A stretch of 33,361 nt of DNA from Spirulina sp. (GTDB lineage: Bacteria; Cyanobacteriota; Cyanobacteriia; Cyanobacteriales; Spirulinaceae), in assembly GCA_011390265.1 (NCBI GenBank), contig JAABSU010000008.1, forward strand, positions 1 through 33,361. The letters run 5' to 3'. The notes beneath the pieces were generated by a model. That model did not search any database and was not told the origin of the DNA. It was given only the letters and a program-made list of their open reading frames with translations. A program made the position numbers and the translations under genes. Below are positions 263-14,896 of this stretch, piece by piece (the first letter of the stretch is position 1; each line of letters starts with the position of its first letter).

Positions 263-360
263 AATCTAACCATTGGCTGTGAATAATCAGGACATCCATC
301 GTCTCCTCTCATTTGGTGAGATGATGATTTTCTGATCTGCCACTCCCCTGCCGCATTTCT

Positions 361-1527
361 ATGAGCAAAATCAACATTCTCAATATCACCATTGATAATC
401 TTTCCCTGGCGCAACTGCTAGACCAAATCAAACAGGGGGGTTTTGTCGTGACCCCCAATGCGGATCACCTCATTCAACTGCAAAACGATCCAGAGTTTTT
501 CCACGTCTATCGCAATGCAGACTATGTAATTTGTGATAGCCAAATTTTGATGTATATCTCTTGGTTTTTTGGAAAAAGAATTCGCGAGAAAATTTCAGGA
601 TCTGATTTTTTCCCCGCATTTTATTGGCATTATCGCCATGATCCCGATATTCGTATTTTTCTCCTGGGTGCGGGGCCTGGTGTTGCCATCGAGGCTCAAA
701 AAAAGATCAATGCCAAGGTCGGCCGAGAAATAGTCGTTGCGACCTACTCCCCATCCTATGGATTTGAAAAAAATGAAGCAGAATGTCACGAAGTGATTAA
801 TATCATCAATGCCACCAATGCCAACGTTCTCGCCGTTGGTTTAGGGGCACCCAAGCAGGAAAAATGGATTTATAAATACCGTCATACTCTCAAAGGGATT
901 AAAATTTTTCTCGCCATTGGCGCGACCATTGACTTTGAGGCGGGGGTGCTGGCCCGAGCGCCGCGCCGTCTCAGTGAATCAGGGCTTGAATGGGTTTATC
1001 GCCTTGCCCGCGAACCGAGGCGATTATGGCGACGCTACCTTTTAGGCATTATCCCCATGCTCAGTTTAATTGTGAGGCAGAAGCTGGGAATTTATCGGTA
1101 TAAAAAACCCTTGGGCTTGTTACTCCATGAAGCGGGGTTATTGACGATCAAGCAGATGGAAATACTGTTAGCCAAACAGGCCAAAGGGACGGATCAACGC
1201 TTTGGCGAGTTGGCAATTGAGCAGGGCTGGATTCAGCCGAAAACAGTACATTTTTTTTTGGTAGAGTTACCCCGTTGGCTTCAGAGACATTACGCTCATC
1301 GATTACCCGATTATTTGGAAGTTGCGGGTTTATTGAGCCATACCCAAATAGAAACTCTACTGGCCGAACAACGGGCAGATCCTCGCTCGCTGGAACAATT
1401 GGCGATGGAGCGGGAATGGATCAATCCCAAAACTGTGAAATTTTTCCAAGAGGTTCAGGCATTGGCGAATCGTCGCAACCTCAACAGTTTTGAGCATGTC
1501 TATTTTTATAAACCTTCCTCCAATTAA
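361..1527 (+). CDS. WecG/TagA/CpsF-family glycosyltransferase with C-terminal tandem domain
   Basis: 388 aa. Residues 1-240 form a complete WecG/TagA/CpsF (GT26) domain: VVTPNADHLIQL with the family Asp, a CDSQ segment, GLGAPKQEKWI, GATIDFEAG and the LARAPRRLSESGLEWVYRL signature. The family transfers ManNAcA-type or similar sugars to lipid-linked intermediates in polysaccharide or teichoic acid synthesis. Beyond the usual length of about 245 residues there is an extension of about 145 residues holding two related units near 253-310 and 318-372. Each has an (E/V)AGLLxxxQxExLLAxQ helix and a W(I/I)xPKTVxFF motif. They resemble the MshEN/GspE_N style of helical repeat seen in cyanobacterial proteins; the function is unknown. 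The downstream gene begins 6 bp later. The nearby Wzc-like gene supports an exopolysaccharide role. No clear ribosome binding site is seen before the ATG. Confidence 0.87.
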   Translation: MSKINILNITIDNLSLAQLLDQIKQGGFVVTPNADHLIQLQNDPEFFHVYRNADYVICDSQILMYISWFFGKRIREKISGSDFFPAFYWHYRHDPDIRIFLLGAGPGVAIEAQKKINAKVGREIVVATYSPSYGFEKNEAECHEVINIINATNANVLAVGLGAPKQEKWIYKYRHTLKGIKIFLAIGATIDFEAGVLARAPRRLSESGLEWVYRLAREPRRLWRRYLLGIIPMLSLIVRQKLGIYRYKKPLGLLLHEAGLLTIKQMEILLAKQAKGTDQRFGELAIEQGWIQPKTVHFFLVELPRWLQRHYAHRLPDYLEVAGLLSHTQIETLLAEQRADPRSLEQLAMEREWINPKTVKFFQEVQALANRRNLNSFEHVYFYKPSSN

Positions 1528-1533
1528 GGAACC

Positions 1534-2736
1534 ATGGTGGTGCAGCGCAGTATTCCGGAAATTAATGCCAAAATTCGTCAGGGTCAGGCTCAGGTCTTAA
1601 CGGTGACGGAGGTGAAACAGCGGGTGGCTGCGGAGGGGGTGGGGGCGATCGCCGCCATTGCCGCCACCGTTGACGTAATTACCAGCGGCACGTTTGAGCC
1701 GATGGAATCCACCGGGGCCTTTCTCAACATCGGCCACACCGATCCGCCGATTAAAATCCGCCAATGTTGGTTAGATGATGTGCCGGCCTATGCGGGGTTG
1801 GGGGCGGTGGATCTCTATCTTGGGGCGACGATGGTTCAAGATAGCAATTTGGAAGGGGAGAGTGAGGAGCGGGGCGGTGGCCATGTGATTGAGCGTTTAA
1901 TTGCCGGCCAGGGGGTGACGTTGCGGGCGACGGGTCATGTGACGGACTGTTACCCCCGCGCTGCTTGGGAAACGACGATTCGCGCTGAAACGATTAATCA
2001 GTTTTATTTATTCAATCCTCGCAATCTTTATCAAAATTTTATTGTCGGCGTGAATGGGAGCGATCGCCCCCTCCACACCTATCTCGGCGTGCTTCAGCCG
2101 GGCCTCGGCAATGCCGTTTATTCCAACCCGGGGGCTTTATCTCCCTTGCTCAATGATCCGGATCTAACGGGGGTGGGGATTGGCACAAAAATTTTCCTCG
2201 GTGGGGGTGTGGGCTATGTGGCCTGGGAAGGAACGCAGCATTTCCCGCTCCAAAAACGGCTCCCCAACCGTACTCCCATCGGCCCGGCGGCCACCGTCGC
2301 CCTGATTGGCGATGCCAAACAAATGTCCTCGGATTGGGTGCGGGGCTGTTATTTCAAACATTACGGCCCCTCGATCATGTTGGGGGTGGGGGTTCCTTTG
2401 GCGGTGCTCAATGAGGAGGTGGTGGCCCGTTGTGCGGTTCAGGATGAGGAAATTGTTGCCCCGGTAATGGATTTTTCCATTCCCCGCCGGGTGCGGCCCA
2501 CCTTTGGTTTAGTGTCCTATGGCCAACTGAAATCGGGGCGGATCACCATTGAGGGGCAATCGGTACGCACGGCCCCCTTAGCGAGTTTATACCGTTCCCA
2601 ACAGGTGGCGGACTGTTTGAAGGCCTGGATTTTGGCGGGAGAATTTACGCTCACGGAAGCGGTTGCCCCATTACCGAGCGATCGCGCCTTTTTATCTCAA
2701 GATCCAGTGGGGACAGGCATGGAGATGGATCGCTAG
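1534..2736 (+). CDS. Homocysteine biosynthesis protein, DUF39/COG1900 family
   Basis: 400 aa, full length for the DUF39 (HcyBio) family. Hallmarks are the N-terminal SIPEINAKIRQGQAQVLT, then TSGTFEPMESTGAFLNIGH, the conserved Cys in KIRQCWLDDVPAYAG, GAVDLYLGATM and GGHVIERLIAG. In methanogens this family takes part in making homocysteine from aspartate semialdehyde with a persulfide-type sulfur donor, the conserved Cys being essential. In cyanobacteria the homologue is usually annotated by analogy only. The start is ATG six bases after the upstream stop, so co-transcription with the glycosyltransferase is likely although the functions look unrelated. The stop codon shares the palindrome CTAG with the stop of the convergent wzc-like gene. 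Confidence 0.85.
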   Translation: MVVQRSIPEINAKIRQGQAQVLTVTEVKQRVAAEGVGAIAAIAATVDVITSGTFEPMESTGAFLNIGHTDPPIKIRQCWLDDVPAYAGLGAVDLYLGATMVQDSNLEGESEERGGGHVIERLIAGQGVTLRATGHVTDCYPRAAWETTIRAETINQFYLFNPRNLYQNFIVGVNGSDRPLHTYLGVLQPGLGNAVYSNPGALSPLLNDPDLTGVGIGTKIFLGGGVGYVAWEGTQHFPLQKRLPNRTPIGPAATVALIGDAKQMSSDWVRGCYFKHYGPSIMLGVGVPLAVLNEEVVARCAVQDEEIVAPVMDFSIPRRVRPTFGLVSYGQLKSGRITIEGQSVRTAPLASLYRSQQVADCLKAWILAGEFTLTEAVAPLPSDRAFLSQDPVGTGMEMDR

Positions 2737-5099
2737 CTGTTACCTAGGCTGTCCGAATGGACAAACTTCGTGCCATTGAGTCCCACGGGTGCCAACTCCT
2801 TGAGGACAGCCTGCGGTGGAGCGGCGGCAACATCGGCGCGATCGCCACTACCGGAGCGATCGCCCCCCTTGTTTCCCGGATAGGCGGGGGTTTCCTTGGC
2901 AAAATTGGCGATCGCCCCTAAAACTGGCGTATTCGCCACCGATAGCTCGTATAAAGACTGCTCTAACACCGATTGCTTCAGGGTTCCCAACCCTGTAACC
3001 AGTAACACCCCATCACTATTAGCCCCCAACAGATGGGCATCCGCTAACCCCCCCAGAGGCGGCGCATCATAGATCACCAAATCAAACTGATCCCGTAGGT
3101 AGATCATCAAATCCTGCATTTTATGGGAGGAAATCAGCCGAATCGGATCGGGGGGCAGCATTCCTGCTGTTAATACCGAGAGGTTCTCATCCAAAATCGA
3201 AGCTTGGATCGCGCTCTGAATCGGGATATCCCCCGACAGCACATCGGTTAACCCTGGGCCATTGGCCACACCTAAGCGTTGATGGACTTGGGGCCGTCGT
3301 AAATCCGTATCCACCACCAGCACCCGCCGATTCATCCGCGCAAAGGCTTGGGCCAGGTAGGCCGCCACCACGGTTTTCCCCTCACCGGCAAGGGAAGAAG
3401 TGAGCACAATCGATCGCACCGGGTTATCCGCATCCAAAAGGCGCACATTGGCCGCCAAAGCTTGGAAGGCTTCGGCAAAGGCAGAGCGGCTCAAGTCCCC
3501 AGCGGGCGATCGCACCCAATGGGCTAAAGGCGTACCGTTTAACACCCAGCGCAAGAGGCCCGTAATTGGATTAGAGATCGATGGGGTGGAGAGACCCAGT
3601 AAATCCCCCTGAGTTTCTACCTCCAAGCTTGGGGTCTGATCGAGGGCGACAAACGTAATCGCGGGGGCAAATTCGCTGAGTTCCCGTTTGCGGGGAATAA
3701 TCCCCAACAGCGAAAGCTTGGTAATTTTTTTAACCTCTTTGGGACTGTGGAGCACATTGCTCAAGGTATCCAGGGCCAGCGCTGCCCCACAGCCCAGCAT
3801 GAAGCCGACAATGGCCCCCAGCAGCACATTGCGGGATGTGCTGGCGGTGGAGGGTTGGGGCGGTGTCACCGGCTCCAGCAGTCGCCAGGGAACTTGACGT
3901 TGGGCAATTTCAATGCGCAGAGAATCCCGACGGGTGAGAAATTGATTGAGGTTTTCCGTGGCAATGTGTAATTCCCGTTCAATATCGGTATAGGAGCGAC
4001 TGATCACAGAAAGCTGCTTGACCCGATTTTCAAAATCCGTCAAGGTATTGGCTAACCCCTGCTGCCGCCCTTCCATTTCCTCAATCCGGGTCGTTAGGGC
4101 GACGGCGGTGCGATCTGCTTCATTGCGCAGCAGGGGGAGGAGGTTTTGACGTTGTTCGTTGAGCAGTTTGATTTCTGGGCTTTCTTCCAGCAGCAACACC
4201 GAATCTTTGGCAATTTGACTATCAATGGCTTGGAGTTGATCCAATATGGCTTGATAACGGGGGCTGCTCATCAGGGCTGATGAAGCCAGGTTTTCGGGGG
4301 ATTTGATTGCTAATTCAGTTTGCATCTCACTGGAGAGCGATCGCAATTCATGCAGTTCTGATTGAATGGCTAATTGTTGAGTTTGCACCGTGGTGATGTG
4401 GCCCGCCAACTGTTCCCCTGTGGTGGCCGGGTCAATGAGGTTATAGTTTTGGCGTAGATTTTGCAATTGGCCCTGTAAAAATTCCACCCGACCCTCTAGT
4501 TCTGGGAGTTGTTCATCGACAAAATCTAAACCCTGTTGAATATCCGATTTTCGGTCTTCTAAGCTGTAGTTCAAATAGGATTGGGAAACCACCATCAGTA
4601 GATCGTTAACAAAGGTGGGGTTAGGATGTTGAAAGGAAACTTCTAAAACATTGGGTCCCAAGACACGAATATTCAAACTATATTTCAAACCTTCGTAGGT
4701 GAGGTGAGGATACTTGCTGTGCAGTTCTTCTAGGACGGGATTGAGGACTTCAGGACTCCGCAGCACTTTGATTTTCGTCTCGTCAAGGGTGACACCTTCG
4801 GGGCGACTCCCAATCACCGCATCAGAGTTGGTCACGGTGGAAATGACTTGGGTTTCCACTGTGACGGATTCGGTGAGAATTTCAAACCGAGATTTATAAA
4901 TGGGGGTATCTGTAATCGCTTTATAGGCTCCCGCGCCTGCCATTAAGCAACTTAAGCCAATAATTAAAAATGCCCGGCGGTAGAGGGCTTCCAACATCCG
5001 CCCCAATTCAATGCCACCCTCATCTTCAGGGATCCGGATATTCTGTTGCCAAGCTTGTTGGTCTGATGCTGTGATTGGTGGAACTTGTCCCGCTTGCAT
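2733..5099 (-). CDS. Polysaccharide co-polymerase/BY-kinase (Wzz-Wzc type)
   Basis: 788 aa from the ATG preceded by GAGG eight bases upstream; the ORF track's TTG start at 5123 adds eight residues. An N-terminal Wzz segment has a first membrane helix (RRAFLIIGLSCLMAGAGA), a long periplasmic coiled-coil part, and a second helix (LLGAIVGFMLGCGAALAL) preceded by the proline-rich PVTPPQPS typical of co-polymerases. The C-terminal cytoplasmic kinase domain has Walker A SSLAGEGKT, Walker A' VLVVDTDLRRP and Walker B DLVIYDAPP. Such proteins control chain length and export of extracellular polysaccharide. The C-terminal tail carries no tyrosine cluster, only one Tyr (ETPAYPG) after the ATPase fold, so the usual autophosphorylation tail appears missing. 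The neighbouring glycosyltransferase supports a capsule or EPS role. Confidence 0.9.
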   Translation of the reverse strand: MQAGQVPPITASDQQAWQQNIRIPEDEGGIELGRMLEALYRRAFLIIGLSCLMAGAGAYKAITDTPIYKSRFEILTESVTVETQVISTVTNSDAVIGSRPEGVTLDETKIKVLRSPEVLNPVLEELHSKYPHLTYEGLKYSLNIRVLGPNVLEVSFQHPNPTFVNDLLMVVSQSYLNYSLEDRKSDIQQGLDFVDEQLPELEGRVEFLQGQLQNLRQNYNLIDPATTGEQLAGHITTVQTQQLAIQSELHELRSLSSEMQTELAIKSPENLASSALMSSPRYQAILDQLQAIDSQIAKDSVLLLEESPEIKLLNEQRQNLLPLLRNEADRTAVALTTRIEEMEGRQQGLANTLTDFENRVKQLSVISRSYTDIERELHIATENLNQFLTRRDSLRIEIAQRQVPWRLLEPVTPPQPSTASTSRNVLLGAIVGFMLGCGAALALDTLSNVLHSPKEVKKITKLSLLGIIPRKRELSEFAPAITFVALDQTPSLEVETQGDLLGLSTPSISNPITGLLRWVLNGTPLAHWVRSPAGDLSRSAFAEAFQALAANVRLLDADNPVRSIVLTSSLAGEGKTVVAAYLAQAFARMNRRVLVVDTDLRRPQVHQRLGVANGPGLTDVLSGDIPIQSAIQASILDENLSVLTAGMLPPDPIRLISSHKMQDLMIYLRDQFDLVIYDAPPLGGLADAHLLGANSDGVLLVTGLGTLKQSVLEQSLYELSVANTPVLGAIANFAKETPAYPGNKGGDRSGSGDRADVAAAPPQAVLKELAPVGLNGTKFVHSDSLGNS

Positions 5100-5357
5100 G
5101 ATGAACCTCGGTGGTGAGGTCAAAACCCCATAATAGCCAGTTTGATTGTGGCTTGAGCGATCGTTGATTGTGGCTAAAACAGTTGATGGAGTGAAGAAAT
5201 CATCTGAATGCGATTATTCCGCTGATTTCTGGCCATCCTAACCCTTCCTTCCTTGATCAGCCAAGGGGATCCCCTCGGTTGGAAGATTGCCATTCATCCC
5301 CTAGGATAGCTATATTACCGGGGTGTTTTCTGCCCTCACCGCTGCTTGCCATCACCC

Positions 5358-7424
5358 ATGCTGCCTGAATCAAACCTTGGCTTGACGCTCCAACGGGGCG
5401 GGGAAGAATTATTGCTGTTGAAGGCGGGCGATCGCTTCACGCTACGCCCGACCCAACCGGACGCGCCCCTGCCCCCAGAACTCGATCGCCTTAACCGTCA
5501 CCCCATTCCCCAAACGCCGCTGCTGGAATTTATCGTCGCGCCGGCCAATTTGGAGGCGGCGATGGCGGCGGCCCGGGGGGCGGAGGGGGTGAGCTTCGCT
5601 AGCCATGTCTATCAACTGCAAAATAGCCCGGAAACGCGGCTCTATCTCACCGATGAAATGACGGTGCAGTTTGGGGCTGAGGTTGATCCAGAGGAGCAGT
5701 TGGCGTTAACGGCTCCCTTGGGGCTGGTGGGCGATCGCCCCCTCGAAGGTGTCCCCAATACGACGATTTACCGCGTCACGCTCCAAGCCACGGCCAACCC
5801 GATTAAGCTGGCCAATCACCTCATGGCTAGCCCGCAGGTGCTCACGGCTGAAGCCAATATTATTTTTCTCCAAGAATCCTTCTATCGCCCCCGCGACTCC
5901 CATTACCGCGAACAGTGGTATCTCCACCACCAGGGGGGAACCCAGTTAGCCCCCAACTCCCATATTGACTGTGAGCGGGCTTGGGATATCACCCGGGGGA
6001 GTCGGTCGGTGGTGGTGGCGATCGCCGATGATGCCATTGATCTCAACCATCCGGATCTTCAAGGCCCGGGGAAAATTATCGCCCCCTACGATTTTCGCGA
6101 TCGCGACTTTTCCCCCCTCCCCACTGAGCCGCAGGAAAGCCACGGCACCGCCTGCGCTGGGGTAGCCGTAGCGGAAGAAAACGGCAATGGCATTGTGGGC
6201 GTGGCTCCCGGTTGCGCCCTGATGCCCCTGCGTACCACGGGTTATCTGGATGATAATGCGATCGAAAACCTGTTTAACTGGGCAATGGAAAAAGGAGCCA
6301 GCGTCATCTCCTGTAGTTGGGGAGCCGCCGCCGTCCATTTCCCCCTTTCCCTCCGCCAAAGGGCCGCCCTCCATAAAGCCGCCACCCAAGGCCGCCAAGG
6401 CAAAGGCTGCGTCATCGTCTTCGCCGCTGGCAATGCCAACCGTCCCGTCCAGGGAACCCTTTATGAACAGGGCTGGCCCAACGACCTCCTCAAAGGCCCC
6501 ACAGATTGGCTCAGTGGCTTTTGTACCCATCCCGATGTGATCACCGTTTCCGCCTGTACGAGTTTGGGGAAAAAATCCAGCTATAGCAATTGGGGTACGC
6601 ATATTGCCGTCACTGCCCCCAGCAATAATGCGCCGCCAGGGATGTGGTTTGCCAAAAGCGGGTTTATGTCCACTGCTCCGGCGGTAAAAACCCATCTGCC
6701 GGGATTGGGCATCTTTACCACGGATCAAATGGGGGATTGGGGCTATGATCGCGGCAACTTTACCCGCAATTTTGGTGGTACTTCCAGCGCCTGCCCAGTG
6801 GTGGCGGGGGTGGCGGCGTTGGTGCTGTCGGTGAATCCCAATTTAACCGCTGTGGAGGTTAAAAAATTGCTGGAGCAGACGGCGGATAAAATTGTCGATC
6901 GCGACCCCGATCCCCAATTGGCCTTAACCCTCGGAACCTATGACAGCAAGGGCCACAGCCAGTGGTTTGGCTATGGCAAGGTGAATGCCTATCAAGCGGT
7001 GTTGGAGGCCCAGCGGCGACAGCGGGCCAATGTCCCCGTGGCAGTGAAGCGGAGTTTGAGCCGCCACAGTAGCCTCGCGGTGGCGATTCCCGACCATAAT
7101 CCCCAAGGGTTACTGAGTAGCTTGGAAATTACCCAAGGCGGCAAGATTACGGCCTTGGCGGTGACGGTGGAAATTGTCCATGGATTTTTGGGAGATTTAG
7201 AAATTCATCTCCGCAGTCCCCACGGCATCATGGTGCTCCTACAAAGCCGCAACCTCGGACGGTTAACCCGCCTCAAACGCACCTACCGCTCCCTCGTCAC
7301 CTCTCCCTTGGCTCAGTTCCACGATCGCCCCGCCTTGGGAACTTGGCAGTTATGGGTGATTGACCGCGTACCGGGGGATACGGGAACGCTTCAGGGTTGG
7401 GGGTTGGATTTGGAGGTGGTTTGA
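5358..7424 (+). CDS. Subtilisin-like (S8) serine protease with C-terminal P-domain
   Basis: 689 aa from the ATG; the ORF track uses a TTG 12 bases earlier (692 aa) and no ribosome binding site decides between them. Residues 1-180 form a pro-region-like segment. The peptidase domain shows the catalytic triad: Asp in VVVAIADDAIDLNHPDLQG, His in ESHGTACAGVA and Ser in GGTSSACPVVAGVAALV, with the oxyanion Asn in VIVFAAGNAN. The last 120 residues (from about SSLEITQGGKI to GWGLDLEVV) are a proprotein-convertase P/Homo-B domain, with the typical V.V.I.H...GDLEI.L.SP.G and GTWQLWVID motifs. This is the kexin-like architecture found in cyanobacteria. No signal peptide is obvious, so the location is uncertain. 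It is the last core gene before the accessory island. Confidence 0.92.
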   Translation: MLPESNLGLTLQRGGEELLLLKAGDRFTLRPTQPDAPLPPELDRLNRHPIPQTPLLEFIVAPANLEAAMAAARGAEGVSFASHVYQLQNSPETRLYLTDEMTVQFGAEVDPEEQLALTAPLGLVGDRPLEGVPNTTIYRVTLQATANPIKLANHLMASPQVLTAEANIIFLQESFYRPRDSHYREQWYLHHQGGTQLAPNSHIDCERAWDITRGSRSVVVAIADDAIDLNHPDLQGPGKIIAPYDFRDRDFSPLPTEPQESHGTACAGVAVAEENGNGIVGVAPGCALMPLRTTGYLDDNAIENLFNWAMEKGASVISCSWGAAAVHFPLSLRQRAALHKAATQGRQGKGCVIVFAAGNANRPVQGTLYEQGWPNDLLKGPTDWLSGFCTHPDVITVSACTSLGKKSSYSNWGTHIAVTAPSNNAPPGMWFAKSGFMSTAPAVKTHLPGLGIFTTDQMGDWGYDRGNFTRNFGGTSSACPVVAGVAALVLSVNPNLTAVEVKKLLEQTADKIVDRDPDPQLALTLGTYDSKGHSQWFGYGKVNAYQAVLEAQRRQRANVPVAVKRSLSRHSSLAVAIPDHNPQGLLSSLEITQGGKITALAVTVEIVHGFLGDLEIHLRSPHGIMVLLQSRNLGRLTRLKRTYRSLVTSPLAQFHDRPALGTWQLWVIDRVPGDTGTLQGWGLDLEVV

Positions 7425-7449
7425 GGGGGAACAGGGAACGGGCAACGCA

Positions 7450-7466
7450 GGGGCGAAAAACGCCCC
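7450..7466. terminator. Short GC hairpin after the protease gene
   Basis: GGGGCG-aaaaa-CGCCCC forms a six-pair hairpin 26 bp after the protease stop. No T-run follows, so it is at best a weak terminator. It marks the left edge of the accessory region. Confidence 0.3.
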
Positions 7467-7585
7467 CCAGACCTAGGTTTTGCGACTGAGATGCTGAAAG
7501 TTGATGACTTGGTGGAGGCGATCGAGAAGTTTGGGCCGTTGAGGCACTTCCATAACAGGACTTGCGCTAAAAGACGACCAAAACG

Positions 7586-7615
7586 GGTGTTATCCCGCCT
7601 GTGCGGAATAACGCC
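7586..7615. repeat. Hairpin of 13 positions with one mismatch
   Basis: ggtgttatcccgc and gcggaataacgcc pair over 12 of 13 positions (one of them a G-T pair) around a CTGT loop. It lies just before the first attC-like structure. It could be a transcription terminator for read-through from the protease gene, or part of a decayed attC; there is no T-run. The preceding aacaggacttgcgct also resembles a short sequence dispersed in cyanobacterial genomes. Confidence 0.4.
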
Positions 7616-7702
7616 TATAATATCGGAGTTAGACCGCCAGTGCTTGGCAACACCCTCCAGGGGTGAGTTATCTTGCAGTTGCGGTCTAATAAATAGTTAT
7701 GT
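7615..7702 (+). other. Candidate attC-like site 1 with R' core GTTATGT
   Basis: An inverted repeat TTAGACCGC / GCGGTCTAA (7629-7637 and 7681-7689) with an inner CACCC/GGGTG pairing is followed, after a six-base spacer, by GTTATGT. This is close to the GTTRRRY recombination core. On the left a seven-base spacer is preceded by CTATAAT, a poor match to the RYYYAAC R'' box. The near-symmetrical spacers and total length of 88 bp suit an attC, but R'' is degenerate. The first ATG of the RM pair begins four bases after the core, as is usual for cassettes. Confidence 0.4.
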
Positions 7703-7705
7703 GTC

Positions 7706-8557
7706 ATGAAAATGAGATTTGCAATGAATAAACAGCAAAGAATTTCAAAAGCCATAAAAGATGTCGTATCTGAAATGATGGATCGGGTAATGGATCGCGT
7801 TCTAATTACTGACCCTTTTATTGAGGAAAGTCACCATTCAAGCAAACCTCTCTACGCAGCATTAGTGCCTGACGAGATTTTTAAAGGTTCACATTTTGAG
7901 AGAAGATTTGTAACTCCATTTGGTGGTGTATGGGAAAAACTTGCTCAAGTTGTTGCTTTAGAAGCTCATGGTAATTGTCAAATGGGACATACGATAAACG
8001 GAACAATTGGAAAAGAAAGCTTAAGAAGAATTCAAGAGATTCTAAATAAATTAGAACATAGTAAAGGCAAAGAAAAAATTAAACCAGATTGGGATAAAGA
8101 ATTGAAATATATTAAGGCGGGAAGTGGGCAACTTATGCCTGCGACTGTTGTGTGTGATATTTTTATACAAAACGAAGAAGATGGAACACGGTATTCGTTT
8201 GAACTAAAAGCTCCATTACCAAATAGCGATCAAACAAAAGTAAGCAAAGAAAAATTATTTAAGCTTTTGGCAATGGAGCCAAAAGCTGTTGATTATGCCT
8301 ACTACGCTTTGCCATATAATCCTTATGGGAGGAAAGAAGATTATAAATGGACTTTCCCTATGCGATGGTTCAATATGCATGAAGATGAATCAGTACTGAT
8401 AGGCAATGAATTTTGGGAACTTATTGGAGGGGAAGGAACTTATAGTAACTTCATTAAAGAAATTAATGCATTGGGTAAGGATTACAAAGAAAGGATCTAT
8501 CGAGAGTTTTTGGGAATTGAACCTCCTAAAAATTTTGAAGAAGAAGTTTTAAAATAA
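7706..8557 (+). CDS. Type II restriction endonuclease, probably TdeIII-like
   Basis: 283 aa from the first ATG; ATGs at 7712 and 7724 are alternatives, the last giving the N-terminus MNKQQRISKAIKDVV. The protein is lysine-rich and soluble. The segment CDIFIQNEEDG followed by YSFELKAPLPNSDQTKVSKEKL has the D-x(n)-E-x-K pattern of PD-(D/E)XK nucleases. The overall pattern (LVPDEIFKGSHFERRFVT, FELKAPLPNSDQTK) resembles the TdeIII family, said to cut GGNCC; I am moderately sure of the family and cannot confirm the site. A C5 methylase gene follows 25 bp later. Coding sequence is markedly AT-rich compared with the flanking core genes. It starts right at the candidate cassette boundary. Confidence 0.72.
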   Translation: MKMRFAMNKQQRISKAIKDVVSEMMDRVMDRVLITDPFIEESHHSSKPLYAALVPDEIFKGSHFERRFVTPFGGVWEKLAQVVALEAHGNCQMGHTINGTIGKESLRRIQEILNKLEHSKGKEKIKPDWDKELKYIKAGSGQLMPATVVCDIFIQNEEDGTRYSFELKAPLPNSDQTKVSKEKLFKLLAMEPKAVDYAYYALPYNPYGRKEDYKWTFPMRWFNMHEDESVLIGNEFWELIGGEGTYSNFIKEINALGKDYKERIYREFLGIEPPKNFEEEVLK

Positions 8558-8582
8558 TTGACTTGAATAAGAGACATAAAAA

Positions 8583-10076
8583 ATGCAGAACATACGATTT
8601 ACTTTTATTGATCTTTTTGCTGGAATTGGTGGGTTTAAAATGGCATTAAGCAATAATGGCGGTCATTGCATAGGTTTTAGTGAAATAAATAAAGACGCAA
8701 TAAATATATATTGCGAGAACTTTAAAATTGAACCTAGTTGTAACTTAGGAGATATCACCAAAATCAGAGAATTACCACCTCACGACTTGTTAACCGCTGG
8801 AGTTCCTTGTCAAAGCTGGTCAATTGCAGGTAAAAATCTAGGTTTTGACGATGATAGAGGGCAGTTGTGGAACGATACAATTTATTTGCTTCAACAATCT
8901 AAACCAAAGGCATTTATTTTTGAAAATGTAAAAGGATTGGTTGACCCTCGGAACAAAAAAGCTTTGTCATATATCCTAGAAAGAATTGAAAAAGCAGGCT
9001 ATCACGCTAACTATTTTTTAATTAACTCATTTGATTATGGTGTACCACAAAATAGGGTTCGCGTATACATAATTGGGTTTAAGAAAAAGAATTACTTCCA
9101 AAATTTCGCGTTACCAAAATTTAGTGAAAACAAACTAAAACTTAGTGATATATTAGGTATTGAAATACAGCAAAAAATAGATAAAAAGATTGTTCAGAGA
9201 GACTTATTTGGCAATATTGTTGAACCTAAAAGCATGAGCCTTTCAAGTACAAATGGATTCAACGATTATTTTTTGTTTAACGACCTTAGAAATGGTCATA
9301 CAACAATACACTCGTGGGACATTATTGACACTACTAAACGGCAAAAAGATATTTGCTTATTATTACTTAGAAACAGACGAAAAAATTACTATGGTAAATT
9401 AGACGGAAATCCATTGTCATTAGAACATTTTCAATGCCTAGACTCGTCGATTAAACAAGAAGAAATTGATAAACTGGTTCAATTAGAAATCTTAAAATCT
9501 GAAGAGTATCGTTTTGCGATCAAACAGTATAATAGTAACGACTTGACAAAGGATGAAGAACTCTTACTTTCATTCGCAAACAATGTAGAAATTCTTATTG
9601 ATAGTTTAAATATTCAAAGAGCTTTTAAGTTAAAAAGGATGTCAATTGGAAAGGCAATTAAGTCTCTGAAACAGAAAGATATTATTGAGTGTGTCGAAAT
9701 TCGATATGATTTTAAAAACACTAAAATTAGTACGGGACTATTTGGTGTAAATCGTATCTTCTTGCCAAGTTCTGATATTTTCCCAACCCTAGTTGCAAGC
9801 GACACAAATGACTTCATAACTTTAAAGACAATCGAAGCATTAAATCATAATGATTTTAAAAACAAATTCATAAAGGAAGTTTATGAATTAAGAGAATTTA
9901 GAAAAATTACTAAACGTGAGGCTTGTTTAATACAGGGATTTCCTGAAGATTTTAAACTACCAAAGTCAAGATCGAGATGGATGAAACTCATTGGAAATAG
10001 TGTTTCAGTTCCCGTAATTGATAAACTGTGCAAAGCGATTATTGATACTGGTGTCTTTGAAAATGAAGAGGAATAG
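8583..10076 (+). CDS. DNA (cytosine-5-)-methyltransferase
   Basis: 497 aa. C5-methylase motifs occur in order: motif I FIDLFAGIGGFKMAL near residue 8, motif IV with the catalytic Cys in AGVPCQSWSIAGK near 78, motif VI FENVKGLVDPRN near 116, motif VIII QNRVRVYIIGF near 157, and motifs IX-X ending in KLIGNSVSVPVIDKL near the C-terminus. Between VIII and IX lies a long variable region of about 230 residues, which would hold the target-recognition domain. It modifies cytosine and protects host DNA from the endonuclease encoded 25 bp upstream. Codon use is AT-rich like its partner. The gene ends 39 bp before the attC-like site. Confidence 0.93.
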   Translation: MQNIRFTFIDLFAGIGGFKMALSNNGGHCIGFSEINKDAINIYCENFKIEPSCNLGDITKIRELPPHDLLTAGVPCQSWSIAGKNLGFDDDRGQLWNDTIYLLQQSKPKAFIFENVKGLVDPRNKKALSYILERIEKAGYHANYFLINSFDYGVPQNRVRVYIIGFKKKNYFQNFALPKFSENKLKLSDILGIEIQQKIDKKIVQRDLFGNIVEPKSMSLSSTNGFNDYFLFNDLRNGHTTIHSWDIIDTTKRQKDICLLLLRNRRKNYYGKLDGNPLSLEHFQCLDSSIKQEEIDKLVQLEILKSEEYRFAIKQYNSNDLTKDEELLLSFANNVEILIDSLNIQRAFKLKRMSIGKAIKSLKQKDIIECVEIRYDFKNTKISTGLFGVNRIFLPSSDIFPTLVASDTNDFITLKTIEALNHNDFKNKFIKEVYELREFRKITKREACLIQGFPEDFKLPKSRSRWMKLIGNSVSVPVIDKLCKAIIDTGVFENEEE

Positions 10077-10115
10077 GAAGATCAAATTGAATTAGAAATT
10101 ATTAATAAAGACAAC

Positions 10116-10185
10116 ACATAACAAATCGCTGCACCTGACATTTCTCCGCTGTGCTACAAAATGTAGGTGAACTCATCCGTTAGAC
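10116..10185 (+). other. attC-like recombination site 2 (end of the RM cassette)
   Basis: The 70 bp reads R'' ACATAAC, spacer AAATCGCTG, arm CACCTGACATTT, loop, arm AAATGTAGGTG, spacer AACTCATCC, R' GTTAGAC. The two arms pair perfectly except for one unpaired G in the left arm, the position where attC sites carry extrahelical bases. R' matches GTTRRRY exactly. R'' is the exact reverse complement of GTTATGT at 7696; extended by two bases, ACACATAAC mirrors GTTATGTGT. In a linear cassette, R'' is expected to be complementary to the cassette's own first bases, so the predicted cassette is 7697-10179 (2483 bp) and contains only the RM pair. Confidence 0.65.
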
Positions 10186-10220
10186 CAACACCTCAATTTT
10201 TCAATACATTTAACCTCACT

Positions 10221-10500
10221 TTCCGCAGGTTGATATTTTATTTTTACTATGCATTGCTAAATACAATCGCTGTAAGCCTTGTGGGAAGAGACTTCTAGGA
10301 TTTGCCAATTTTGAGAACTCAACGAGTAGCTTAATGTTCCGTAATAATTTGATCGGCAACATCCAAAGTCCAAACCTGCCATTTTTCAAGGCTTTCGGGA
10401 AACAAAAAATAAATGCACACTTTAATTTGTTTGTCAACCTGCGGAATGTCGGTAAACCACTACACCTTTTTTATTTTTTGTCAACCTGCGGAATGTCGGT
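10221..10500. repeat. TTCCGCAGGTTGA repeats, one inverted and two direct; possible IS/MITE relic
   Basis: TTCCGCAGGTTGA occurs at 10221-10233 and its reverse complement at 10434-10446 and 10481-10493. The last two lie in a 23-bp perfect direct repeat ttgtcaacctgcggaatgtc plus ggt (10431-10453 and 10478-10500). Opposite copies with AT-rich inner flanks look like the ends of a small insertion element; the second right-hand copy abuts the truncated antitoxin gene. No transposase is recognisable between them. The 73-aa ORF at 10216-10437 (minus) and a fragment reading FPESLEKWQVWTLDVADQII in another minus frame were not identified. Confidence 0.45.
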
Positions 10501-10633
10501 TTAACCAGATCGACTGGCTCCGGGAGATTGCCATTGTCCTATTTCAGCAAGAGCGGATTTCCCTGAGCCGTGCCAGTAAGATTGCCGCAATGGAAGTCAT
10601 GAATTTTCAAAAACTACTGGCAGATTGTGGCAT
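10500..10633 (+). pseudogene. Truncated duplicate of the UPF0175 antitoxin gene
   Basis: This 134-bp segment is identical to 11634-11767 except for three substitutions. It covers codons 17-60 of the intact UPF0175 gene, from FNQIDWLREIA to the LLAD-x-G segment, and then diverges. The first codons are replaced by the TCAACCTGCGGAA repeat and the 3' part by unrelated sequence. The 87-aa ORF in the track (10413-10676) is a chance fusion across this fragment. No toxin gene follows it in the same orientation. The duplicate implies a recent segmental duplication within the island. Confidence 0.8.
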
Positions 10634-10672
10634 GCTTAAACAGCATAGGACTAAGAAATCAGCCGAGATCGC

Positions 10673-11005
10673 TTAGTGAAGCTCCAAGCAGTGAAAAGCA
10701 GTATTCCCTAAAAGTTCTTCAATTACTTCTTGAGCAGAGCGAATCAGAATTTCAATCTGTTTAGTTGGTGCATTTCCACATCTTAACCATATCACTTTCG
10801 GTGGAGAACCGTATAGTCGGCTTCTTTCCGCAAAATCTGCATCTTGAGTGACAATGCAGAAATCGTTTAACTGAGCGAACTCCCAAATCTCTGTATCTGT
10901 CTTCTCCGTCAACCCGTGAAATTGTACATGACTAGCATTCGGGAAGATATCAGCCAATCGAGTAACAAGTTTTCGACTCAGGTTTTGATCAAAAAGTAGT
11001 TTCAA
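10673..11005 (-). CDS. DUF5615 PIN-like toxin of a type II TA pair
   Basis: 110 aa. The protein begins MKLLFDQNLSRKLVTRL, with the PIN-type first Asp, followed by VTQDADFAERSRLYGSPPKVIWLRCGN, typical of DUF5615 (Mut7-C-like PIN fold). These are putative ribonuclease toxins. The start overlaps the stop of the upstream DUF433 gene by four bases (ATGA), indicating translational coupling. The DUF433/DUF5615 pairing is a common cyanobacterial toxin-antitoxin arrangement. The length is normal for the family, so it is probably intact. It is oriented against the flanking TA genes of the island. Confidence 0.85.
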   Translation of the reverse strand: MKLLFDQNLSRKLVTRLADIFPNASHVQFHGLTEKTDTEIWEFAQLNDFCIVTQDADFAERSRLYGSPPKVIWLRCGNAPTKQIEILIRSAQEVIEELLGNTAFHCLELH

Positions 11006-11232
11006 GCAGCACTCACCGATGCAACTAAACGATGTTCACGATCCGCCGCAAACTCTAAGCAGGCTCTAATATCGGTTTCCGTCAGTTCTGGAAAATCGTC
11101 GATGATCTCAGCAGTAGACATACCAGCCGCTAACCAGCCAAAGATATCGTAAACCGTAATTCGCATCCGGCGGATACAGGGCTTGCCGCCACGCTTATCA
11201 GGCTCAATCGTAATGATGTCGCGATAGCTCAT
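11002..11232 (-). CDS. DUF433 antitoxin
   Basis: 76 aa. The sequence has the DUF433 pattern: an N-terminal ITIEPDKRGGKPCIRRMRITVYDIFGWLAAG, then a second helical part MSTAEIIDDFPELTETDIRACLEFAADRE. The family is a small helix-turn-helix-like antitoxin and likely autorepressor usually encoded just upstream of a DUF5615 PIN toxin, as here with a four-base overlap. The full usual length of about 75 residues is present. The promoter should lie between 11233 and 11280, which also contains a candidate attC R'' box. Confidence 0.85.
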   Translation of the reverse strand: MSYRDIITIEPDKRGGKPCIRRMRITVYDIFGWLAAGMSTAEIIDDFPELTETDIRACLEFAADREHRLVASVSAA

Positions 11233-11272
11233 AATACAGACAGATGGGTTATGTACACCTAAGTTTAGAGCA

Positions 11273-11359
11273 GGCTAACACTGCACTGCAATGGGCAGGC
11301 GTTAAATGATCGGGTGAGAGCCATAGGTTGCTTGCCGCCGCTCAACTTCATCGTTAGAT
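11273..11359 (+). other. Weak candidate attC-like site 3
   Basis: GGCTAAC (one mismatch to RYYYAAC) at 11273 is followed by ACTGCACTG, similar to the left arm of site 2, and 87 bp later by GTTAGAT, a perfect GTTRRRY core. Internal pairing is poor (only GGCAGGC against GCTTGCC), so the site may be decayed or a coincidence. Its right core coincides exactly with the start of the duplicated murJ 3' segment. Confidence 0.25.
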
Positions 11360-11526
11360 CGCCCCAAGGGTTTAGCCCCGGCGGAGGAATTTGGCTTGAA
11401 GGCGGGTTTGCAGCATCGTTAATTCTGGGAGTTTGAATTGCAGGGCTAACCCGGTGAAGATGCCCAAGGCGACGATGGAGCCGAGGGTGAGTTGTAGGAA
11501 TACGACCCATAATTGAGCGGGATCAA
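11353..11526 (-). pseudogene. Duplicated 3' end of murJ (174-bp direct repeat)
   Basis: 174 bp aligned without gaps to 13285-13458, which is the 3' end of murJ plus 19 bp of its downstream sequence. Several substitutions separate the copies, for example near the stop codon and at gttgtaggaata versus gttgcaccagta. The fragment holds the last 50 or so codons of murJ and has no start, so it is not functional. Both copies begin at the identical octamer GTTAGATC. The 81-aa ORF track entry at 11265-11510 is a frame shadow of this copy. Confidence 0.85.
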
Positions 11527-11585
11527 GCGTGCAACCCCAGCCGCCCAAGCCTTAAAATTACCAATAAGCACTTGAGGGCAACTCG

Positions 11586-11837
11586 ATGCAAATTATGCTG
11601 AACCTACCTGATAGCCTCAGCCAAGTAGAAACCTTTAACCAGATCGACTGGCTCCGGGAGATTGCCATTGCCCTATTTCAGCAAGAGCGGATTTCCCTGA
11701 GCCGTGCCAGTAAGATTGCCGCAATGGAAGTCATGAGTTTTCAAAAACTACTGGCAGATCGTGGCATTTGTGTTCACTACGATGTGGAAGACTTTGAGCA
11801 GGATGTTCAGCATCTACGAGATCGAGGTTGGCTGTGA
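11586..11837 (+). CDS. UPF0175 family antitoxin
   Basis: 83 aa, the usual size for UPF0175. The N-terminus MQIMLNLPDSL is a beta strand typical of the family; the middle QERISLSRASKIAAMEVMSFQKLLADRGI is the predicted helix-turn-helix, and the C-terminus YDVEDFEQDVQHLRDRGWL completes it. Members are antitoxins paired with DUF3368 PIN proteins. The stop overlaps the GTG start of the downstream toxin by four bases (GTGA). A truncated copy of this gene lies 1.1 kb upstream at 10500. Confidence 0.88.
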   Translation: MQIMLNLPDSLSQVETFNQIDWLREIAIALFQQERISLSRASKIAAMEVMSFQKLLADRGICVHYDVEDFEQDVQHLRDRGWL

Positions 11838-12364
11838 TCGTTGTCAGCGATACATCTGCCCTCTCCAATCTTGCAATCATCGATCATCTCTGGTTGCTAA
11901 AGTCAATTGACCGAACCGTTATTGTTCCGGACGTTGTTGCCAGGGAATTAGCAGCCGTAAGCAATCCCATCATTCCAGTCATTCTCCAAGCAGGCTGGAT
12001 TCAAACTCAATCCCTCAGCAACTTTGAACTTGCCCACCAACTTCAGCAAGAACGGGGATTAGATGCTGGAGAAGCGAATGCAATAGCCTTGGCATTTGAG
12101 CTACAAGCTGATGATCTCCTCATTGATGAACGCTTGGGGCGGCAAGAAGCCCTTCGGCTTGGACTGTCTATCATTGGTATTTTGGGCATTCTGCTCGTTG
12201 CCAAACAAAGGAGTCTCATCCCTCAAGTTCGATCTGTTATGGATACCTTGATCAAGCAAGCTGGTTTTCGTGTCACCCCTGAGCTATATCAGCATATCTT
12301 AAGATTTGGCTCAAGAATCTTAGGAGATGATAAACTGAGACAGTCTGAGGATGTCAAGGATTAG
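11834..12364 (+). CDS. DUF3368 PIN-domain toxin
   Basis: 176 aa from a GTG that overlaps the antitoxin stop (GTGA); the ORF track's TTG six bases earlier is the alternative. PIN acidic residues are visible: Asp in VVSDTSALSNLA, Glu in GLDAGEANAIALA and Asp in DDLLIDERLGRQEA. DUF3368 proteins are putative ribonuclease toxins paired with UPF0175 antitoxins, as here. The C-terminus runs directly into the antisense integrase-like fragment, whose 3' end it truncates. Length and motifs suggest it is intact. Confidence 0.87.
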   Translation: MIVVSDTSALSNLAIIDHLWLLKSIDRTVIVPDVVARELAAVSNPIIPVILQAGWIQTQSLSNFELAHQLQQERGLDAGEANAIALAFELQADDLLIDERLGRQEALRLGLSIIGILGILLVAKQRSLIPQVRSVMDTLIKQAGFRVTPELYQHILRFGSRILGDDKLRQSEDVKD

Positions 12365-12490
12365 GATTTGGCCATAGTCAACGTCCACATCCCTAACTCG
12401 CAGTCGTAGGCATTCAGTCAACCGCATCCCAGTCCCGTAGAGTAGGTGGATGACTAAGGCCTCCGGGTCATAGAAGACTCCGAAAAGCTT
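12365..12490 (-). pseudogene. intI: Integron-integrase-like tyrosine recombinase fragment
   Basis: The minus strand is open for 42 codons and reads KLFGVFYDPEALVIH followed by LLYGTGMRLTECLRLRVRDV and DVDYGQI. The block LLYGTGMRL-x-ECLRLRV-x-DVD is the strongly conserved region around the first catalytic Arg of integron integrases and their closest XerC-like relatives. There is a stop just upstream in frame (12491-12496 region) and the fragment ends at the DUF3368 stop, so the N-terminal part and the HxxR and Tyr motifs are gone. It is too short for the ORF track. The IntI-specific insert lies in a missing part, so IntI versus another tyrosine recombinase cannot be settled from this piece. 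Confidence 0.7.
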
Positions 12491-12531
12491 TTATAAAGAT
12501 TTAGTACTTTAGTTCAGAAGATTTGCCCATT

Positions 12532-12795
12532 ATGACGCAAGCAACTCTTGTTAAACTCATTACTCAGCTTGAAACACTGGAATTGGATGAGCTTCAAAAG
12601 CTAAGTCAGGCAATACAAGTTCGTCTTAACTCATTAGATGAACCCACTAGACTAGCCCAGCTTTACAGTTCTTTACTTCACTCAGGTCTAGTTTGCTATG
12701 TAAGGCAAGGCTCTCTGAAGCAACAACCTAGGTTATCTTTAGTTTCGGTACAAGGTAGTTCTATATCTGAAACAATTATTGAGGAGCGCGGCTAA
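12532..12795 (+). CDS. Putative VapB-like antitoxin
   Basis: 87 aa from the ATG; the ORF track's TTG start adds three residues. The N-terminus TLVKLITQLETLELDELQKLSQAIQVRL is a predicted amphipathic helical pair, like many cyanobacterial small antitoxins. The remainder is low in recognisable motifs. The stop TAA is immediately followed by the ATG of a VapC-type PIN toxin, so it occupies the antitoxin position. The assignment rests mainly on this context. Confidence 0.6.
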   Translation: MTQATLVKLITQLETLELDELQKLSQAIQVRLNSLDEPTRLAQLYSSLLHSGLVCYVRQGSLKQQPRLSLVSVQGSSISETIIEERG

Positions 12796-13260
12796 ATGGC
12801 TATCTATTATCTGGATAGCAGTGCGTTAGTAAAACGCTATGTGAGCGAAACTGGTTCTACTTGGGTTTGCAGTCTTTTTGATCCCAGCCTAGGTCATCAG
12901 TTTTTTATAGCTGCTATTGCAGGTGTAGAAATTATTTCTGCAATTACCCGTAGAGCAAAAGGCGGAAGTATTAGCATATCTGATTCTATAGCGATTTGTA
13001 ATCAGTTTAAACAAGATTTTCAGACCGAATATCAGGTTATTGAAATCTCAGAGAAAATCATTAAAACAGCAATAAGCATGGCTGAGTTATATGCTTTGCG
13101 AGGCTATGATGCCGTTCAACTTGCTTCAGGGCGTGAATTGAACATTCTATGCTTAACAAATAGTCTGCCTGTGGTCAATTTCGTTTCAGCCGATAACGAT
13201 CTAAACAAATGTGCATTGAGCGAAGGATTAGCGATCGAGAATCCCAATAATTACCCCTAA
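12796..13260 (+). CDS. VapC-type PIN-domain ribonuclease toxin
   Basis: 154 aa. The acidic residues of the PIN active site are visible: Asp in IYYLDSSALVKRYVSE, Glu in IAGVEIISAITRR, Asp in RGYDAVQLASGREL and the last acidic cluster in VSADNDLNKCA. The family cleaves tRNA or other RNA when released from its antitoxin. It starts directly after the antitoxin stop, without a spacer. The gene ends 24 bp before the GTTAGATC boundary downstream of murJ. Normal length suggests it is intact. Confidence 0.88.
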   Translation: MAIYYLDSSALVKRYVSETGSTWVCSLFDPSLGHQFFIAAIAGVEIISAITRRAKGGSISISDSIAICNQFKQDFQTEYQVIEISEKIIKTAISMAELYALRGYDAVQLASGRELNILCLTNSLPVVNFVSADNDLNKCALSEGLAIENPNNYP

Positions 13261-13303
13261 GCTCTACATCAGCATAACTTGACTGTTAGATCGCCCCAAG
13301 GGT

Positions 13304-14896
13304 TTAGCCGCGCCGGAGGAATTTAGCTTGGAGGCGGGTTTGCAGCATCGTTAATTCTGGGAGTTTGAATTGCAGGGCTAACCCGGTGAAGATGCCCAAG
13401 GCGACGAGGGAGCCGAGGGTGAGTTGCACCAGTACGACCCATAATTGATCGGGATCAAACCAGCGATCGCACAGCCAATTGACCCCCCAACTCCCCGCAG
13501 TAGCCGCCACTGTACAACCGATCAAGCCCAACAAAATCAGCCCCCATTCCCCCAAAGGCAAACCCCGCAGGCGGCGATGGAGAATGAAGAGAAAAATCAC
13601 CATCGAGGTGATATTCACCCCCACTGTGGCCATCACTAGGCCCGGGGTCTGAAAGGCATTGACGAGGAAATAATCTAAAACAACGTTCAGGAGAATATTA
13701 AAGACGCTGATCCGAAAGGGTGTTTCCCCATCCCCTAGAGCATAGAACACTCGCACCAATACATCCCGCCCTAAATAGAAAAACATCCCAAACCCGTAGG
13801 CCATTAACACCGGCACGACTAACCGGGAAGCCTCCGCATCAAAGGCAAACCGCTCATAGATAATCCGCACAATCGGCCCCCCTTGGGCGATGAAGATGGC
13901 CGTTAGGGGCAACATGGTGAGGGCGGTGAGGAGTAGACCCTGGCGGATGCGGACTTTGAGATCATCCCACTGCTCCGGAGCCGTCAAACGGGAAAACACC
14001 GGCAACATCGGCACGAGGATCATATTGGAAAGGATGCCCACGGGGGTGAGGACGATGAAATTGGCGTAACGCATCGCCGCCGCTGCCCCGGCAATGGTGG
14101 AGGCGAAATAGAGGTCGGTGTAGACGTTAATGTGGAGCATCCCCGATGAGAGGGTGGCGGGGGCCATCACCTTGAGGACATCGGCTACACCGGGAATCCG
14201 CCAATCAAACCGGAGGCGCAGGGTTCCGAGTTGCGATCGCCACTGGGCCACCAACTGCGCCAACCATTGCAACACCCCCCCCGCTAAAGTTCCCCCCGCC
14301 AACACCAAACCCCCCAACCGCGCATATTCCGGCGCATTCACCGCATCCCCCAACCACCACAGCAAAAACCCTACCCCCCCGATCAGCGTCACGCTGGAAA
14401 AGAGGGGGCTAACGCTGGGCAACCAATATTGATCGGCGGCGTTGAGTGTGCCAAAGCCAATGCCGATCAGACCCGCAAGGATCGCCAGGGGAGCCATGAT
14501 CCGCAGTTGTAGCACCGCCATGGCGCGGGTGGTGTCATCCAAGCCGGGGGCGAGGAGGTCGATGCAGGGGCCGGCAGCGAGGATCAATGCCACCGTAACC
14601 AGCAAGAGAATTCCCGTTACGAAGGTGGTCACCGTTTCGACAATGGGGGCCGCTTCCGATTTGTCCCGTTTTGCCAAGGCACTGACTAAAGCACTGTGGA
14701 AGGGGCCGTTAATCCCCCCCAAGAGAATGAGCAAAAAGCCGGGAATCACATAGGCGTAGGCGTAGGCATTGACCACCGGCCCCACCCCAAAGGCGGCGGC
14801 GATCGCCTGCTCCCGCACCAAACCAAACACTTTACTAATCAATGTGGCCATGGCCACAATACCGGCAATGCCCGCGAGGGAACGTTTAGGAGCCAT
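13304..14896 (-). CDS. murJ: Lipid II flippase MurJ
   Basis: 530 aa polytopic membrane protein, normal length for MurJ/MviN. The N-terminus SLAGIAGIVAMATLISKVFGLVREQAIAAAFG is the family signature (helix 1 with the conserved Arg), followed by PVVNAYAYAYVIPGFLLILLGGINGPFHSALV. About fourteen hydrophobic segments follow. MurJ flips lipid II across the cytoplasmic membrane for peptidoglycan synthesis. The neighbouring holB and peptidoglycan hydrolase lie on the same strand upstream. The 3' end borders the accessory island and has been copied there at 11353-11526. Confidence 0.95.
   Translation of the reverse strand: MAPKRSLAGIAGIVAMATLISKVFGLVREQAIAAAFGVGPVVNAYAYAYVIPGFLLILLGGINGPFHSALVSALAKRDKSEAAPIVETVTTFVTGILLLVTVALILAAGPCIDLLAPGLDDTTRAMAVLQLRIMAPLAILAGLIGIGFGTLNAADQYWLPSVSPLFSSVTLIGGVGFLLWWLGDAVNAPEYARLGGLVLAGGTLAGGVLQWLAQLVAQWRSQLGTLRLRFDWRIPGVADVLKVMAPATLSSGMLHINVYTDLYFASTIAGAAAAMRYANFIVLTPVGILSNMILVPMLPVFSRLTAPEQWDDLKVRIRQGLLLTALTMLPLTAIFIAQGGPIVRIIYERFAFDAEASRLVVPVLMAYGFGMFFYLGRDVLVRVFYALGDGETPFRISVFNILLNVVLDYFLVNAFQTPGLVMATVGVNITSMVIFLFILHRRLRGLPLGEWGLILLGLIGCTVAATAGSWGVNWLCDRWFDPDQLWVVLVQLTLGSLVALGIFTGLALQFKLPELTMLQTRLQAKFLRRG

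Follow-up and report, generated by a model that had tools for sequence, protein, structure and literature searches.

The interval between a subtilisin-like (S8) peptidase gene and murJ in this Spirulina genome is a decayed chromosomal integron, made up of integrase relics, an attI region, an attC site and cassettes. The sequence GTTAGATC, at which both copies of a duplicated murJ 3′ end begin, is the outer edge of its cassette array abutting murJ, and this reading of the boundary is firm. The duplication itself was probably produced when a second integron segment recombined into murJ and the old murJ end was left behind as a stub. We analysed a stretch of 33,361 nucleotides (33.4 kb), referred to here as the window, together with genomes of its relatives. 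The window's own genome (G000) is 82.9% complete in 343 contigs. Two further genomes belong to the same genus, a fragmented, 81%-complete sister genome (G001) and a closed genome of two contigs (G002), and G011 represents another genus; every assembly other than those of G002 and G011 is fragmented.

Components of the decayed integron

The left chromosomal flank of the island is the S8 peptidase gene (5346-7424, + strand), which shares 92% amino acid identity and the same island-adjacent place with its counterpart in G001. The first cassette (7697-10179, +) carries a type II restriction-modification system, consisting of a TdeIII-type endonuclease gene (7706-8557; Pfam RE_TdeIII, E=1.6e-72) and a C5 methyltransferase gene (8583-10076; Pfam DNA_methylase, E=9.5e-82). 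The second cassette (10180-11353) holds a toxin-antitoxin pair, DUF433 (11002-11232, −) and DUF5615 (10673-11005, −), plus an antitoxin fragment. Further towards murJ lie a UPF0175-DUF3368 toxin-antitoxin pair assigned with Pfam (11586-12364, +; UPF0175 at 11586-11837, E=1.2e-20; DUF3368 at 11828-12364, E=4.5e-14) and a final unit (12523-13260, +) composed of a small ORF (12523-12795) and a PIN-like toxin (12796-13260), the PIN domain match of the latter being weak (E=0.007) and below the Pfam cut-off. The antitoxin fragment of the second cassette is a 134-bp piece present twice (10500-10633 and 11634-11767, 98% identity); its copies are more alike than the two murJ ends and are interleaved with them. 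Two 47-bp tandem units with GTCAACCTGCGGAATGTCGGT at the end occupy 10407-10500, with an inverted relative at 10218-10255. An Rfam search of 7300-13700 gave no match, and comparison with plasmid DNA returned only matches of ~69%, to DUF433/DUF5615 pairs on three cyanobacterial plasmids.

Two relics of an integron integrase are present, both on the minus strand. The first (7476-7553) corresponds to codons 1-26, as aligned by tblastn with the intact IntI of G001 (73% identity, E=6e-7). The second spans 12353-12496 (TIGR02249, E=1.5e-11), and within it codons 125-163 of the G001 protein align at 12353-12469 with 90% identity (E=1.4e-16). Read along the minus strand, codons 125-163 come 5 kb before codons 1-26, and this reversed order requires either two integrase copies or a rearrangement; a single integrase gene split by an insertion is excluded by it. 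No intact intI was found in the 82.9%-complete assembly of the window's genome, which contains relics only. Contig C467 of G001 encodes an intact integron integrase (TIGR02249, 461 bits).

The attI region occupies 7554-7700 (+), with the insertion point between G7696 and T7697, beyond which every copy of the surrounding element diverges. This 220-bp element (7480-7700) is repeated in contigs C76, C109 and C91 of the window's genome, and G001 and a small number of other relatives also carry it. The intact intI in C467 of G001 has the element directly upstream, and the start of the integrase, MEVPQ.PKLL, is read from the element's minus strand, on which ground a reading of the element as a MITE was dropped. 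Element copies with unlike neighbours always diverge at ATAG/TTA, as would be expected of an attI insertion point.

The array edge at murJ

The repeated murJ end aligns positions 11353-11526 (copy A, −) with 13285-13458 (copy B, −), and 164 of the 174 bp are identical (94%). Copy B belongs to the intact murJ (13304-14896, −; MurJ TIGR01695, E=6e-125), of which it covers the 3′ end and the flank as far as the GTTAGATC edge, while copy A is a truncated murJ 3′-end stub with a short 3′ flank and no start. A preliminary description of this DNA had placed the beginning of both copies at the same core, and the aligned repeat bears this out: GTTAGATC occurs on the + strand of the window at these two sites only. 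The distances given there are likewise correct, with the breakpoint 19 bp from the murJ stop codon (13304-13306) and 24 bp after the last toxin-antitoxin pair, whose toxin ORF ends at 13260. Upstream of the core the copies agree in AACTT only, four mostly mismatched bases intervening between AACTT and the core, so the homology of A and B ends at the core or within a few bases of it; no better alignment extends the duplication farther. At the distal limit the homology fades at about 11530 and 13462. With G001 as the outgroup, six of the ten differences between the copies are assigned to copy A and three to copy B, the tenth being unclear; these small numbers would fit relaxed constraint on the stub.

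The match of GTTAGAT to the core consensus GTTRRRY, also remarked in the preliminary description, has proved to be more than formal. GTTRRRY has 83 matches on both strands of the 33.4 kb, about 0.25% per base; the GTTAGAT that opens copy A is a true integron core and makes up the R′ box, the final seven bases, of an attC site (11273-11359, +). An attC covariance model that we built from nine sites of 84-89 nt, taken from relatives and from contig C109 of the window's genome, matches this site (33 bits, E=2.7e-6 for a search of the window) and has no other significant match in the window. As a specificity control, 80 other murJ loci (1.29 Mb) were searched and yielded one match, at 45 bits; a single match in that much DNA places 33 bits well over background. 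The site retains the R boxes and the L′-R′ half, and its L″ arm has lost the pairing with L′, a pattern that marks it as probably decayed. With that pairing gone, it is recognized by sequence more than by fold, and its folding energy is no better than that of shuffled sequences.

Other searches for attC sites gave less. A weak candidate at 10116-10185 (+), at the end of the restriction-modification cassette, has the right place and orientation, 39 bp past the methyltransferase stop, and is not significant alone (14.4 bits, E=0.2); attC-like pairing there is at background level only. The covariance model detected no attC at 13285, the edge of copy B, and none at the murJ edge of G001. A strict attC finder, with 9-bp L arms, returned zero sites in the window and true ones in relatives, the latter going into the covariance model. 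The pattern CCGCTCAAN{5,8}CGTTAG showed no enrichment over a reversed control in 59 relatives, where most matches had 6-base spacing, and for that reason the pattern alone was not taken as evidence.

The sister genome locates the edge. G001 has the same S8 gene, attI and murJ flanks as the window and an entirely different cargo, namely a cassette that has an attC of its own (E=7.8e-5) and encodes an uncharacterized AAA-like protein, followed by Schlafen/AlbA-type and ParA-like genes. Its murJ homology ends at CG/TTAAATTG (core GTTAAAT), the position homologous to G/TTAGATCG in the window, and unrelated cargo lies beyond; the boundary is therefore not different in this second genome. Two genomes with unlike cargo are thus joined to murJ at the same core, which identifies that core as the outer edge of the array, and the homology, both between copies A and B and with G001, ends there because the array edge lies there. 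Plain tandem duplication or unequal crossing-over of the murJ-end segment, with a core at the boundary by chance, would accommodate the interleaved order of the repeats (antitoxin, murJ, antitoxin, murJ) and finds a parallel in the uppP 3′ end of contig C76, which is duplicated around a toxin-antitoxin pair (see below). A significant attC exactly at the boundary and the same boundary beside other cargo in G001 nevertheless speak against it; as an account of the boundary it is already strongly weakened, and as an account of the duplication we consider it very unlikely.

Gene-end stubs in related genomes

Fragments of housekeeping genes recur beside integron remains in these relatives. In G001, integrase codons are fused next to the S8 gene to a murJ-end stub, LQTRLQAKLLRRG, that closes with a TGA stop codon, and the full murJ of the same genome has a 3′ end unlike that of the stub and stops with TAA. 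In the closed genome G002 (locus L101), 13 codons of the integrase run in frame into the terminal codons, GSLFAIRRVSFR followed by TAA, of a gene that we take from family knowledge to be ftsX. This stub (7320-7365) adjoins attI, cassettes and attC, and the full ftsX (3000-3902) stands at the far edge and ends in TGA. Both stubs are short (~41-46 bp) with the stop codon at the end, and both full genes have a diverged 3′ end. The mismatch between the stop codons of stub and full gene in G001 and G002 is what would be expected if the stub and the gene end come from different alleles.

Stubs of this length and form, together with the diverged ends of the full genes, would also suit an integrative element that targets and restores gene 3′ ends and carries the integron as cargo, the stubs then being the distal halves of its attachment sites. 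Against such an element, the island showed no further integrase, no site evidently shared by the murJ and ftsX ends was apparent, and what directly adjoins the stubs is integrase codons rather than the end of an element. We consider this explanation very unlikely.

A prfA 3′ fragment lies beside attI relics in G011 and encodes a protein 94% identical to the form found in the window's genus; the full prfA of G011 is located elsewhere and is 83% identical to that form. The junction of the fragment has a six-base microhomology, GGAGCG. The locus concerned (L098, 5308-11912) contains three attI relics in 5 kb and a 200-bp repeated segment besides the foreign prfA fragment, and several integron segments are piled up in it.

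Repeats were also observed in two other settings. In contig C76 of the window's genome (locus L052), the 3′ part of uppP is duplicated (3448-3975 and 4809-5774, 91% DNA identity); the copies enclose a DUF433/DUF5615-like toxin-antitoxin pair, an attI relic lies 1.7 kb off, and the repeat edge is coreless. Locus L102 of another genome, G049, contains at 301-9043 several near-identical integrase 5′ fragments and long direct repeats of up to 602 bp with 98% identity.

Origin of the duplication and its bearing on integron spread

We favor, as the likely history of the murJ repeat, a decayed integron array ending at murJ into which a second segment was brought by recombination in murJ. The donor DNA would have come from a relative with another array at the same place, in the order integrase relic, toxin-antitoxin genes, GTTAGATC edge and murJ. 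One end of it would have exchanged with murJ through homologous recombination and the other end would have been joined illegitimately, so that the recipient's former murJ end persisted as copy A, the incoming end became copy B, and the integrase relic and toxin-antitoxin genes (11527-13284) came to lie between them. The core G/TTAGATC is the outer edge of the array, and the bases past the cut are murJ's own downstream flank. The two edges of the 11527-13284 segment are homologous on the murJ side and coreless on the 11526-11586 side; copy A has no core at its right edge (~11526), and this edge looks illegitimate. We infer both the recombination route and its direction, and one-sided homologous recombination and the integration of a circle by a single crossover would yield identical products. 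Among the genomes compared we found neither a donor nor a recipient nor one with an empty site, and in none of 84 murJ loci does an S8 gene adjoin murJ without an insert.

The segment 11354-13284 could instead be one large cassette that an integrase inserted at the murJ core or at a genomic attG-like site. G/TTAGAT is found at both of its ends, the left of which is an attC, an intact integrase of the same family exists in the sister species, and cassette insertion at genomic attG sites has been described (Loot et al. 2024, as cited in PMC12901181). Its right end (13285), however, is without the attC that a cassette needs, an integrase relic inside the segment is unusual for a cassette, and the capture of a murJ end and the stubs at ftsX and at murJ of G001 are left unexplained, making a single inserted cassette improbable in our judgment. 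More broadly, the duplication is more readily attributed to a combination of homologous and illegitimate recombination than to an integrase, because an attC is not detectable at copy B and a core is absent both from the far end of copy A and from the edge of the comparable uppP duplication. The suggestion in the preliminary description that the breakpoint could be a secondary site used by an integron integrase or another recombinase holds insofar as the core is a true one and an integron is present, with relics, attI, attC and cassettes; the core is not an isolated secondary site.

Homologous recombination in the gene at the array edge, combined with an illegitimate join, is the simplest common account of the stubs at murJ, ftsX and prfA. 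Kobayashi and colleagues are said to have found that restriction-modification genes insert with long target duplication, and the present locus shares with such insertions the placement of addictive modules (restriction-modification, toxin-antitoxin) between long direct repeats of part of a target gene; here, in contrast, the locus includes an integron, and one of the repeat boundaries falls on an attC core. One-sided events are known in transformable bacteria (PMC3240628, PMC5361080), and natural transformation is able to carry integrons across species (PMC3410848). Homology-facilitated illegitimate recombination has been proposed for the T6SS immunity-gene arrays of Vibrio cholerae (PMC5361080). 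The history favored for the murJ locus would share with those arrays a one-sided homologous anchor, an illegitimate junction on the other side and a retained piece of the displaced gene, whereas here it would be an integron segment that comes in and the 3′ end of a housekeeping gene that is retained.

The island shares with sedentary chromosomal integrons the TIGR02249 integrase family, an attI by intI, an attC of ~86 nt and toxin-antitoxin or defence cassettes, but differs from them in possessing integrase relics only and a short decayed array, with integrase pieces flanking the murJ stub. Clusters of attC sites without an integrase, termed CALINs, and integrase pseudogenes likewise combine cassettes and attC with no working intI nearby; in contrast to these, this locus keeps two pieces of integrase and the attI region, and relatives show the integrase start joined to the end of a host gene. 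Cyanobacterial integrons and attC sites of the Cyanobacteria type had been described before (PMC2426708, PMC8352920), nearly a third of the intI genes in a published survey are pseudogenes (PMC2426708), and a study of Treponema stated that the mechanism by which integrons are inserted and deleted was unknown (PMC3607928).

Overall, an odd repeat turns out to mark where a cassette array ends, and a boundary that matches GTTRRRY need not mean integrase action. The part worth following is the recurrent gene-end stub fused to a dead integrase. We tentatively raise the possibility that in Spirulina-like cyanobacteria integrons spread from genome to genome and from locus to locus in segments that take along the 3′ end of a neighbouring housekeeping gene (murJ, ftsX, prfA), recombination in that gene inserting the array, truncating the integrase and leaving the former gene end as a fused stub, such that decay and spread might be one event. 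Little is known of how sedentary integrons pass from one chromosome to another and how they die, and a neighbour-gene stub joined to the opening codons of a dead integrase offers a readable scar of integron movement and death. Any set of genomes can be searched for this scar, of which murJ of G001 and ftsX of the closed genome G002 give examples.
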